From positions 186,001-250,000 of the forward strand of contig NZ_RHOC01000002.1 in the NCBI RefSeq assembly GCF_003946145.1: a stretch of 64,000 nt of DNA. Reading direction: 5' to 3'. The first letter of the stretch is position 1. Each line of letters begins with the position of its first letter. A program made the translations under genes and the position numbers. The notes under the pieces were generated by a model. That model did no database searches. It worked only from the letters and a program-made list of their open reading frames with translations, and was not told the DNA's origin. Of this stretch, positions 9,643 to 45,911 are shown piece after piece. The DNA is from Levilactobacillus huananensis (GTDB lineage Bacteria; Bacillota; Bacilli; Lactobacillales; Lactobacillaceae).

Positions 9643-10938
9643 ATGTTAGAACGTTATACCCGTCCGGAAATGGGCCAAATTTGGTCATTAGAAAATCAGT
9701 ATCAATCCTGGCTGGCTGTCGAAGTTGCCATTGATGAAGCCTGGGCTCAGGTCGGTGAGGTACCAGTCGCCGATGCCCAGAAGATTCGCGAACACGCGAC
9801 ATTTGACGTTGACCGCATCGCTGAAATTGAAGCGGTCACCCATCATGATATGGTTGCCTTCACGCGAAATGTTTCAGAATCTCTCGGGGCTGAACGCAAG
9901 TGGATTCACTTTGGGGTTACGAGTACCGACGTCGTAGACACGGCGCAGGGGGTTCGGTTAAAGCAAGCGAATACGCAAATTCGACAGAGCTTGACGACAT
10001 TGATTGAAACACTTGGCAATATGGCGCGACAATATAAGGATACGGTCATGATCGGCCGGACCCATGGGGTTCAAGCTGAACCGACAACGTTTGGCTTGAA
10101 GATTGCTCGCTTCTACGCGGAGATGCAACGTAACTTGGATCGGTTTGATCGAGTGACAGCTGGCGTCGAGACCGGTAAAATCAGTGGGGCCGTCGGGACG
10201 TTTGCTAACGTACCACCTGAGGTTGAAACCTACGTTTGTGAGAACTTAGGTCTAACGCCACAGCCCATTGCTAGTCAGGTCTTACCACGCGATCTCCATG
10301 CTGATTATGTCGCGACCTTAGCTCTGATTGGGACGAGTGTAGAGAACATTGCCACTGAGATTCGTGGCCTGCAACGTTCGGAGATTCATGAGGTTGAAGA
10401 ACATTTTAACCCCGGCCAGAAGGGATCCTCAGCGATGCCACACAAACGTAACCCGATTGGTTCTGAAAATGTGACGGGTTTGGCACGGGTTTTGCGGGGA
10501 ACCATGGTGACAGCTTATGAAGACGTCAGTCTCTGGCATGAACGTGACATCTCTCATTCTTCCGCAGAACGTATGATTTTACCGGAGAGTACAACGTTAC
10601 TGGATTACATGTTGCATCGAATCAATCGTATTTTGACCAACTTAGATGTTTTTCCAGAGACGATGCTGGCAAATATGAATCGCACTTATGGTCTGATTTA
10701 CAGTCAACGGCTACTGTTGAAGTTAATTGAATCTGGGTTGAGTCGTGAGGACGCGTACGACCTGGTTCAACCGTTGACGGCCCAAGCTTGGGATCAACAG
10801 GTTCAGTTTCGGCCATTAGTTGAGGCTAACGCAGACATTACTGCACGGCTGACGCCGGATCAGATCGCCGATGCTTTTGACTATCATTACCATTTGCGGC
10901 GAATTGATTTGATTTTTAAACGGCTTGGCTTAAATTAA
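9643..10938 (+). CDS. purB: Adenylosuccinate lyase
   Basis: A 431-residue fumarase/aspartase superfamily enzyme. It splits adenylosuccinate to AMP and fumarate and SAICAR to AICAR. The family signature GSSAMPHKRNP is at about residues 262-272, with catalytic Ser in the flexible loop, and the TSTDVVDT and THGVQAEP segments are the other active-site regions. ATG at 9643 follows TAGGAGGAAA. Divergent from purA, it completes IMP-to-AMP conversion and ends at a strong hairpin terminator. Confidence 0.96.
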   Translation: MLERYTRPEMGQIWSLENQYQSWLAVEVAIDEAWAQVGEVPVADAQKIREHATFDVDRIAEIEAVTHHDMVAFTRNVSESLGAERKWIHFGVTSTDVVDTAQGVRLKQANTQIRQSLTTLIETLGNMARQYKDTVMIGRTHGVQAEPTTFGLKIARFYAEMQRNLDRFDRVTAGVETGKISGAVGTFANVPPEVETYVCENLGLTPQPIASQVLPRDLHADYVATLALIGTSVENIATEIRGLQRSEIHEVEEHFNPGQKGSSAMPHKRNPIGSENVTGLARVLRGTMVTAYEDVSLWHERDISHSSAERMILPESTTLLDYMLHRINRILTNLDVFPETMLANMNRTYGLIYSQRLLLKLIESGLSREDAYDLVQPLTAQAWDQQVQFRPLVEANADITARLTPDQIADAFDYHYHLRRIDLIFKRLGLN

Positions 10939-10961
10939 TTCCAAAATTATGAGGACAAAAC

Positions 10962-10990
10962 AAAAAGAACTCATTAGGAGTTCTTTTTGT
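10962..10990 (+). terminator. Terminator of purB
   Basis: AAAAAGAACTC-ATTAG-GAGTTCTTTTT, 11-bp stem with T-run, 24 nt after the stop codon. Confidence 0.88.
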
Positions 10991-11197
10991 TTGAAATCCG
11001 GAAGTATTCCGAAACCGCTTTACGTCTGCAAGTTGATATAGCTGAAACGTGTGCCAAAAGAAATTGGTTCTGCCCGCTAGGCTTTATACGGCTGAATCGA
11101 GGCCTTTCTCAGCTCATCTACGATAGATGGCCATTAATTAACTTTGCCTCATAACGATTTACTTAAATGATAAGTTAGGTATACTACTGGACGAGCC

Positions 11198-11345
11198 AAA
11201 AACCACCGCACACTCCGGGGAGGAGGATGCGGTGGTTTTTGATTGAGGAGTGAGGTCACTTAGGGGGAGTGACGCTCAGTTAGAGGAGTGGTTAGGCTTG
11301 AGGGAACCTAACCCATGATCAGATTCTCTTTGGGGGAGAGAATCT
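11198..11345 (-). ncRNA. Candidate structured sRNA: four hairpins with C-rich loops
   Basis: The 540-bp gap 10939-11477 lies between convergent genes and holds four consecutive hairpins: 11321-11345 (9 perfect bp), 11290-11313 (7+2 bp), 11251-11278 (10 bp with one bulge) and 11198-11240 (13 perfect bp, T-run after it). Read on the minus strand, the loops are CCCCC, CCCTC, CCCCC and TCCTCCTCCCC, and the linkers carry CTCCTC twice. These are complementary to Shine-Dalgarno sites, as in Firmicute sRNAs with UCCC loops. Hairpin 11198-11240 would be the minus-strand terminator. I see no convincing minus-strand promoter; a plus-strand TATACT at 11180-11185 has a weak -35, so strand is not settled. 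Confidence 0.55.
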
Positions 11346-11477
11346 AAAAGGGATTGGATATAGAATTTGACTAGTAACAGCTATTGGCTAATTACTATGA
11401 TGATAACTATACCCGGACTTTGTGACGAGAAAAGGGGTCAGACTGTGACGACTTTTAGATCATTTGTTAAAGGAAGT

Positions 11478-12437
11478 CTAAACCTGTGATTTTTCTTCGA
11501 CGGAACTGTCAAAGTAGGTTTTTAAAAACTCGGTCACGTGAGCGCGATAACGGTCTGGGTTGATCCAGAAACTCTCAGCATGTGAGGCGTTGCGAACGAT
11601 CCAGAGTTGTTTTGGCGCGTGGGTAGCGGCGTAGTTCTCGTAGGCCATCCCCACAGGAACGTAGACGTCCCGTTCCCCGTGAATAAAGAGAATCGGTCGT
11701 TTATTTTTCTTTAATTGATCGGTGGCGGTGACATCCCCTAGATAATAGCCGAGGCGTCGTTTAGAAATGGTGCTGACCAATGGCTCGATCGGATACTTGG
11801 GTAAATGAAATTGGCGTTTGAGCAGATAGGTGAGCTCCGCTTCGATGCTAGAGTAGCCACAGTCAGCGATGATTGCTTTGACCTGATCAGGCAATGTTTC
11901 GCCAGAGAGCATTTCCATCGTGGCGCCCCCCATGCTGACACCAAATAGAAGAATCTTAACGTTCGCATCAGCACGGTCGATGACTTGTTGGATCCATTGT
12001 AGATAATCCAAGCGGTCAAGCCAACCGAAGCTGATGTACTTGCCGGCACTCTCACCGTGCCCACGGTCGTCTGGCAGAAGAACGTTAAAGCCTAACTGGT
12101 GATACATCTGAGCGAAGTTCGCCATGGTTTCGCCATTTCCCTTATAACCATGGGAGATAATAACTGTTTTATGGCTAGGCGTTTCGGCCGGAATATATTC
12201 GGCAACCATTCTGTTTTTAGGATCATGTTCGTGGAGATACCATTTTTCCTTCTTAACCTGCTGAAACCAATCAACGTAGGCATAGTAGGCATCTGCGTAT
12301 TTTTGCTTATCAGCGGAGGTCTCAGGAACGTAGTTGACCCGCTTGAAGGCAAAGTTAAACAGGCGTTCACTGGCAATTAAAGAGGTTGCAGCCAATCCGA
12401 CAAGGGGCAGTGCCCAAGTCAATGTTTTCTTTTTCAT
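11478..12437 (-). CDS. Alpha/beta hydrolase with N-terminal membrane anchor
   Basis: A 319-residue protein. Residues about 7-23 are a hydrophobic signal anchor, so the catalytic domain is probably extracytoplasmic. The oxyanion region is SHGYKGNGE, the nucleophile elbow GVSMGGATM, the acid HGERDVYVP and the histidine NASHAESF, giving a complete Ser-Asp-His triad (peptidase S9/YqkD-like family, about 300 residues). ATG 12437 follows AAAGGACC. The substrate is unknown. It is downstream of, and on the same strand as, a phosphatase gene but separated by a terminator. Confidence 0.85.
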   Translation of the reverse strand: MKKKTLTWALPLVGLAATSLIASERLFNFAFKRVNYVPETSADKQKYADAYYAYVDWFQQVKKEKWYLHEHDPKNRMVAEYIPAETPSHKTVIISHGYKGNGETMANFAQMYHQLGFNVLLPDDRGHGESAGKYISFGWLDRLDYLQWIQQVIDRADANVKILLFGVSMGGATMEMLSGETLPDQVKAIIADCGYSSIEAELTYLLKRQFHLPKYPIEPLVSTISKRRLGYYLGDVTATDQLKKNKRPILFIHGERDVYVPVGMAYENYAATHAPKQLWIVRNASHAESFWINPDRYRAHVTEFLKTYFDSSVEEKSQV

Positions 12438-25467: not shown

Positions 25468-25519
25468 TCTAAGAAGCGTTGACGATTGTGCATTTCCTGT
25501 TATGCTGGAAGTAACCAGA

Positions 25520-25668
25520 ACACTAGGGGTGTCCACGAGTTGGGCTGAGATGCGTGTTGCACGCGATCCCTTGGAACCTGTCAAGTTCACACTTGCGAAG
25601 GGAATGTGTCGTGATACCGTAACGGGTCACCGGTTCACCCACATTGTGAGCTGGTAACCCGTCTTTTA
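25520..25668 (+). ncRNA. TPP riboswitch with terminator platform
   Basis: The THI-element pattern is clear: GGGGTGTCC, GGGCTGAGAT, an optional hairpin GCGTG-TTG-CACGC, then ATCCCTT-GGAACCTGT and GAAGGGAA (about 25525-25605). It is followed by a hairpin ACGGGT...ACCCGT with CTTTT (to about 25668), a likely terminator. TPP binding would close expression of thiMDE when thiamine is abundant. Confidence 0.93.
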
Positions 25669-45221: not shown

Positions 45222-45911
45222 TTGAGTACAACTGCCAAGGTCTTGGTCGTGGAGGACGAACGCGAGTTGTCCGCGGATATTGTGGCGTTAATTAGACCGA
45301 TTTGTGAGACGACCACCGCGTTTGATGGTGAACAAGGCGAGTTTCTAGCCAGTCAAGGTGTTTTTGACGCGATTATTTTAGATTTGATGTTACCCGGTCA
45401 GAGTGGGCTGGATCTCTTGCTACACATTCGCAACAAGGCTATTAAGACCCCTGTGCTGATTTTAACGGCCAAAGATACGATTGCTGACAAATTGCGGGGA
45501 TTCAATGATGGTGCCGACGATTACGTCACCAAGCCGTTCCATCGTGAGGAATTATTGGCGCGTATGAAGGCTCTGTTGAAGCGTACGGGACATTTGAACA
45601 GTAGTGATGTGATTACACTGGGTCAATTGGAAATCAACACTGGCAAGCATTTAGCGACGTTTGATGGTGAGCCCTTGACCCTGAAGGGCCGTGAGTTTGA
45701 TCTGCTGGCCTATCTAGTGGCCAATCCTGGAACGATCATTACCAAGGAACAGATCTTCAACCGCTTGTGGGGCTTTGATTCAGAGACCTCATTGTCTGTG
45801 GTAGAAGTCTATATGAGCAATCTGAGAAAGGAACTTAAGCGTGCTGGCAGTGATCTGTCGTTGCGGACAATTCGCAATGCCGGTTATATTGTGGAGGCAC
45901 CTAATGAGTAA
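45222..45911 (+). CDS. OmpR-family response regulator
   Basis: A 229-residue protein. The receiver domain has acidic pocket ED (VVEDE), phospho-acceptor Asp in IILDLMLPG (about residue 54), Thr and Lys in LTAKDT and VTKPF. The C-terminal winged-helix domain ends LRTIRNAGYIVE, as in the CiaR/PhoB type. TTG 45222 follows AAAAGGAGG. It overlaps the histidine kinase gene by eight bases. Confidence 0.93.
   Translation: MSTTAKVLVVEDERELSADIVALIRPICETTTAFDGEQGEFLASQGVFDAIILDLMLPGQSGLDLLLHIRNKAIKTPVLILTAKDTIADKLRGFNDGADDYVTKPFHREELLARMKALLKRTGHLNSSDVITLGQLEINTGKHLATFDGEPLTLKGREFDLLAYLVANPGTIITKEQIFNRLWGFDSETSLSVVEVYMSNLRKELKRAGSDLSLRTIRNAGYIVEAPNE

Follow-up and report, generated by a model that had tools for sequence, protein, structure and literature searches.

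The LhrC RNAs of Listeria are induced by cell-envelope stress via LisR and bind mRNAs through three CU-rich motifs, according to the available excerpts of PMC4132741, and excerpts of PMC5880928 describe how the CU-rich loop A of LhrC pairs with a Shine-Dalgarno region. The csRNAs of Streptococcus, which belong to the CiaRH regulon, occur in several copies and carry anti-Shine-Dalgarno stretches, and their promoter repeat TTTAAG-N5-TTTAAG was searched for ten bases before the -10 element; the same excerpts of PMC3091779 report that CiaH occurs in streptococci and is absent from Lactobacillus. For RsaE and other UCCC-loop small RNAs (sRNAs) of Staphylococcus, the accessible part of PMC8383071 presents the unpaired C-rich loop as a signature of Hfq-independent repression. 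Knowledge of regulatory sRNAs is scant for the lactic acid bacteria of foods and probiotics. Here, a stretch of 64,000 nucleotides from Levilactobacillus huananensis (contig NZ_RHOC01000002.1, positions 186,001 to 250,000; the window) was analysed, and on sequence evidence it carries a genus-wide sRNA gene of the C-rich-loop type on the minus strand.

The sRNA gene spans ~205 nt (11197..11401, minus), with its 5' end placed from the -10 element and its 3' end from the terminator. An earlier note, made from the letters of the window alone, had described four hairpins with C-rich loops at 11198..11345. All four were confirmed by sequence, repeat search and fold, and the coordinates are correct as far as they reach; however, they are too short, as the conserved RNA starts at ~11401 and includes an additional 5' hairpin (11397-11372) that had been missed, giving five in total. 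This hairpin, H1 (11372..11397, minus), has the arms TAGTAAT/GTTACTA and seven pairs, formed in 100% of cells across 34 sequences. It is followed on the same strand by H2 (11321..11345; loop CCCCC, 11336-11332), which is supported by repeat search, fold and covariation, by H3 (11290..11313; loop CCCTC, 11304-11300) and by H4 (11251..11278; loop CCCCC, 11267-11263). The CTCCTC reported for two linkers was found as ACTCCTC at 11289-11283 and 11251-11245, where the first linker (11283..11289, minus) is exact in 28 of 34 copies with a CU-rich variant in the other six, and the second (11245..11251, minus) reads ACTCCTCA in 32 of 34. At the 3' end lies an intrinsic terminator (11197..11241, minus) with the C-rich loop TCCTCCTCCCC (11227-11217); its T-run is present in 34/34 copies and the C-rich loop in 31/34. 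The terminator had been given as 13 bp, yet the repeat search showed longer arms of 20 nt with 90% complementarity, and the output of a simple terminator scan did not include it. Altogether, six or seven C-rich single-stranded segments can be counted, namely the three inner loops, both linkers, the loop of the terminator and the segment AATCCC. Folding of 11190-11360 on the minus strand gave -68.2 kcal/mol, where 200 shuffles averaged -31.38 (z -10.23) and none was as good.

At gathering score, Rfam gave no match at the sRNA and only sub-threshold matches on the stretch itself, leaving the suggested RsaE-like membership unsupported. One weak match, of 23.3 bits, was to alphaproteobacterial ar14 (RF02344) at 11320-11196 on the minus strand. 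The ar14 RNA has C-rich loops, but the score is far below the gathering score of 58.8, and the resemblance was put down to chance or convergence. Elsewhere in the window, a TPP riboswitch is located at 25515-25621 on the plus strand (RF00059, 68.4 bits).

Comparison among relatives establishes a conserved gene with its strand, its fold and a common promoter geometry. When a 331-nt query was searched against 58 genomes, comprising 35 of Levilactobacillus (own genome included) and 23 from other genera, the sRNA was matched in 34 of the 35, the sole miss being a genome that is 72% complete, and in 0 of the 23. A second own-genome match (G000:C12:197197-197241, plus) is the terminator palindrome, a match in G003 (L035) covered the terminator part only and was taken as chance, and a search of a plasmid collection returned no match. 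In the alignment, loops and linkers are near-invariant and a T-run follows the last hairpin, while the stems vary in sequence yet stay paired, as the earlier note had expected of relatives. Specifically, 95.9% of the cells in stems are paired across 34 sequences, and 85 cells changed on both sides compared to 26.7 in shuffles (0/500 as high), while the number of further pair types was less striking (31 versus 27.3, reached by 25 of 500 shuffles). Sliding the partner by 1-3 columns made pairing fall to 26-40%. Double changes affect five of the seven pairs of H3 (99.2% of cells paired) and six of the nine pairs of H4 (93.8%), whereas six of the seven pairs of H1 never vary, so H1 itself is without covariation support. 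The loops of H2, H3 and H4 are C-rich in 34/34 copies.

The promoter, left open in the earlier note, is marked by a conserved -10 element and a (T/G)TCACA hexamer in 34/34 copies. The -10 element (11406..11411, minus) reads TATAGT in 32 of them and either TATATT or TAATAT in the remaining two, and the hexamer nine bases before TAnnnT is TTCACA in 25 and GTCACA in nine. In the window, this hexamer is the GTCACA at 11426-11421, 9 nt before the -10 element, and from the alignment of relatives it belongs to a series of putative response-regulator half-sites (11421..11482, minus) that also includes GTCACA at 11449-11444, TTAACA at 11470-11465 and TTTAGA at 11482-11477. Conserved promoter blocks extend to ~80 nt upstream, to ~11480. 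A simple scan of 10900-11700 returned three sigma-70-like sites, one on the minus and two on the plus strand, with a shuffle mean of 1.1; the minus site, TCGTCA-17-TATCAT at 11428-11400, overlaps the proposed promoter and has a different -10 element.

Promoters of related geometry are found elsewhere in these genomes. The tandem pattern TTCACA-N5-TTCACA-N9-TAnnnT with at most one mismatch gave 24 matches in eight genomes, compared to four for the reversed pattern. By inspection, 13 of the 24 precede C-rich-loop sRNA-like loci, and the remainder comprise one before HtrA, three before a membrane protein and seven before other or no clear genes. The own genome has three tandem-pattern matches: one belongs to the 13 sRNA-like loci (L101, G000:C12:119572, minus), and the genes behind the other two are unrelated (L109, L115). 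The window promoter is not among the three and carries two GTCACA half-sites 23 bp apart instead of the tandem repeat. At L103, L105 and L116, a TTCACA-type site precedes a membrane protein, which is FtsX-like by Pfam at L116 and unmatched at L103, and this protein is possibly a further member of the regulon. The same geometry is seen in the htrA promoters of 10/10 Levilactobacillus genomes examined (TTCACA exact in eight, TTCATA in two); among seven other genomes, the hexamer is exact in G076 and agrees in four or five of six letters in six. As for the regulator, the own genome has eight OmpR-type regulator genes, and the motif was found upstream of 0/8, giving no sign of autoregulation. Of the eight, one is encoded in the window itself, with the OmpR-type DNA-binding domain of a response regulator at ~45666-45890 on the plus strand (G000:C12:231666-231890). 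In naming the regulator, L171, L168, L170, L172 and L166 all fell short of the NCBIfam cut-offs shown. L171 might be a LisR or CroR; its closest relatives of solved structure are a number of OmpR-family regulators, including the receiver domain of ArlR.

The sRNA is probably an independently transcribed, envelope-stress-induced repressor that acts at multiple sites by anti-Shine-Dalgarno pairing under an OmpR-type regulator; here we infer transcription, regulator, inducing signal, mRNA pairing and targets alike. A response regulator of the OmpR family, most likely an envelope-stress regulator like LisR or CroR, would bind the TTCACA-like half-sites, which would replace a -35 element, and turn on the sRNA gene along with htrA and sister sRNAs. 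The ~205-nt RNA, transcribed independently and of a kind that may work without Hfq, would fold into five hairpins and expose its six or seven C-rich segments. Each segment could pair with a G-rich Shine-Dalgarno region and keep translation from initiating, which would allow a single RNA to repress a number of envelope or transport mRNAs under stress. The wider spacing of the half-sites in the window promoter counts slightly against this reading. In pairing energy, the C-rich segments do better against the start regions of the 55 predicted genes of the window than against 275 coding stretches, and the 5' loop does not; this speaks for a capacity to pair only, because the choice of starts favoured strong Shine-Dalgarno sites.

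The strand, on which the earlier note had not decided, is taken to be minus because there are 50 G-U cells and 15 A-C cells, although a single pair of H1 contributes 17 of the former and the sequences are related. A functional RNA with G-rich loops, read from the plus strand, is extremely unlikely. While the plus strand folds well (-71.2 kcal/mol) and is preceded by the promoter-like scan site TTTACT-16-TATACT at 11158-11185, beyond the terminator, its fold exceeds shuffles less clearly (z -6.77 versus -10.23), and the site is not conserved, since relatives fail to align beyond the terminator. The G-U bias and this unconserved site led to its rejection, and with the strand assigned to minus, a CsrA-sponge RNA with GGA loops on the plus strand was discarded as well. 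The neighbouring genes bear on another reading, also raised in the note, in which the RNA would be released from the 3'-UTR of an alpha/beta hydrolase mRNA or be its mere tail. The hydrolase gene (11478..12437, minus) is a neighbour only, situated upstream on the same strand and convergent with purB (9643-10938, plus), which is followed by a terminator-like inverted repeat at 10958-10992. The hydrolase is located upstream of the sRNA in 34/34 loci and ends ~80 nt before it in the window, as a 3'-UTR origin would have it; yet the gap measures 79 to 461 nt in 32 of the loci, and in the other two, where the hydrolase alignment is partial (142-150 residues), it reaches 1129 and 1153 nt. As the sRNA has its own -10 element and hexamer conserved in 34/34 copies and the gap varies, such an origin is decidedly unlikely, and by inspection the Lactiplantibacillus-type RNAs precede rather than follow a related hydrolase. 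On the far side, purB is found in 26/34 loci and may be cut off in the remaining ones, because the loci are short.

The C-rich hairpins might also act not as an antisense RNA but as a decoy that captures an RNA-binding protein, since their set of similar loops on regular stems resembles that of protein sponges such as CsrB. However, the CU segments recur unstructured in the linkers too, like those of LhrC, and the sole GGA of the minus strand, GGA being the CsrA motif, sits in the terminator hairpin, making a decoy highly improbable. Finally, the same RNA could be under the control of PhoP and respond to phosphate starvation instead of envelope stress. In the same genomes, a number of pst promoters (L075, L083, L087, L094) have TTTACA repeats, presumably PhoP boxes, one of which is placed 9 nt before the -10 element in an identical geometry. 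The sRNA and htrA promoters, on the other hand, mostly read TTCACA and not TTTACA, and htrA is a typical envelope-stress gene; control by PhoP is therefore regarded as unlikely.

The proposed anti-Shine-Dalgarno repressor appears to belong to a wider family, because a model, R1, gives bridging matches and because the promoter is shared. Searched against 397 Lactobacillaceae genomes, R1 matched 34, of which 25 are Levilactobacillus and nine are others; seven of the nine look credible, and the matches in G306 and G429 look like chance on inspection. By inspection, the member in G076 (L062) is convergent to purB, Lactiplantibacillus-type genomes carry two copies adjoining a related hydrolase (L064, L066, L067), and several promoters of R1 members outside the genus show TTCACA-like half-sites at 11-bp steps. 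Combining the promoter with CTCCTCCAA, a pattern that does not describe the window RNA itself, gave matches in 116/397 Lactobacillaceae genomes and 9/40 genera, with 0 in the control among the rows listed. This count is cleaner than that of an earlier 19-letter search around ACTCCTCC with three mismatches, which matched 27/35 genomes and was noisy, with reversed-pattern matches in many too. The own genome encodes a second sRNA (L101/L144, G000:C12:119572-119603, minus) with a C-rich loop, a TTCACA-type promoter and the hairpin TTTTACTCCTCCAAAAGTAAAA; it precedes a calcineurin-like phosphoesterase gene, and by promoter and CTCCTCCAA it is present in 25/25 Levilactobacillus genomes of one draw. 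A longer-form scan of bacterial and archaeal genomes returned at least 120 stretches, and among the 80 matches listed are Lactobacillaceae, Vagococcus, Desemzia, Pisciglobus, Carnobacterium, Trichococcus and one Faecalicatena contig. The latter, labelled Faecalicatena absiana (L229), has an sRNA copy closely resembling the one in Lactobacillus delbrueckii (L270), and contamination or a wrong label is the probable cause.

The ACTCCTCC-hairpin family of Lactobacillales was further described by a second model, R2, built from 56 loci without their promoters. At E 0.001, R2 matches 66/246 genomes of the order, including some used to build it, in 19/65 genera and with up to 12 copies per genome. In its stem, 81.2% of cells are paired and 55 are double-change cells compared to 24.9 in shuffles, while the count of varying pairs or pair types is not clearly above shuffles. 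The promoter was present at 8 or more of 9 letters in 19/20 fetched matches, where 1.25 would be expected from shuffles, and in 15/16 independent matches after removing four on contigs that, judged by their length, had been used to build R2. This promoter, (T/G)TCACA-N9-TAnnnT, is also that of the window RNA in 34/34 copies. R2 gave no match to the sRNA in the window up to E 10, none in the own genome at E 0.001 and none to the purB-linked member L062; it matched the second sRNA at E 0.0023 in a small search. Both R1 and R2 match the Lacticaseibacillus-type (L061, L063, L065) and Lactiplantibacillus-type (L064) members. In one genus, tandem sRNA copies are spaced by 195 or 213 bp (G434, G489, G049; up to 12 in G502). 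In 12 member loci, the only Rfam matches, a THF riboswitch and a tRNA, lie outside the sRNAs. The same promoter type precedes many similar, apparently undescribed sRNAs in lactic acid bacteria. Among the open-access journal papers listed by the literature searches, no description of the window RNA or the TTCACA/ACTCCTCC family was found, and the available parts of PMC7873292, PMC13109727 and PMC5643018 contain nothing bearing on either. The conserved enterococcal pair sRNA_112/sRNA_005, as presented in excerpts of PMC7724050, might be a family member. The promoter-plus-loop signature and the hairpin model provide a list of candidate sRNAs and a testable regulator.

Among described systems, the likeness to LhrC drawn in the earlier note proved apt. 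As far as excerpts of the LhrC papers describe them, LhrC1-5 of Listeria (RF00616) share with the window RNA the CU-rich motifs in a hairpin loop, a single-stranded stretch and the terminator loop, and share with the new family the occurrence in several copies, under an LhrC promoter controlled by a two-component system. By inspection, members of the wider family share the LhrC layout of TTTTCATT-loop-AATGAAA, ACTCC and terminator. In contrast, LhrC covers 111 model positions, while the window RNA, at 205 nt, is nearly double that and has three internal C-loop hairpins. The LhrC model gave no match up to E 10 in 11150-11500 and none at E 0.01 in the own genome, and TTCACA-N9-TAnnnT was found before no lhrC gene among 20 LhrC loci scanned; the LhrC promoter L340 reads TTTAAC, TCTAAT, TCACAG and TCACGC at 11-bp steps. 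On 12 of the 20 LhrC loci, R2 gave four weak matches (E 0.15-0.68), the three aligned ones lying in register on LhrC copies. Common descent of LhrC and the ACTCCTCC family is therefore only suggested, because these matches are weak and the own genome has no match to the LhrC model. Weak single matches of the LhrC model in other families (G435, G439, G549; E 0.0035-0.0082) may form bridges from LhrC to the new family.

The csRNAs, in the excerpts of their description, resemble the new family in N5-spaced direct repeats near the -10 element, multiple copies and anti-Shine-Dalgarno segments. They differ in their CiaR box, TTTAAG-N5-TTTAAG versus TTCACA or GTCACA here, and in having two stem-loops with the anti-Shine-Dalgarno sequence in the stretch between, unlike the window RNA. 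Accordingly, the csRNA repeat was not found in the sRNA promoters, where 34/34 copies have TTCACA or GTCACA-N9. RsaE-type RNAs, from the accessible text, share the C-rich unpaired loop motif, while the window RNA has no Rfam match to RsaE. The promoter and hairpin family opens the way to asking whether LhrC and the csRNAs share an origin. The htrA gene belongs to the CiaR regulon. It could be speculated, quite tentatively, that one ancestral envelope-stress regulon of the Lactobacillales joined an OmpR-type regulator and TTCACA half-sites with htrA and multicopy C-rich-loop sRNAs, of which LhrC would be a diverged branch and the csRNAs a counterpart or another branch, while Levilactobacillus would have an enlarged RNA with seven anti-Shine-Dalgarno segments damping the translation of many envelope mRNAs simultaneously.
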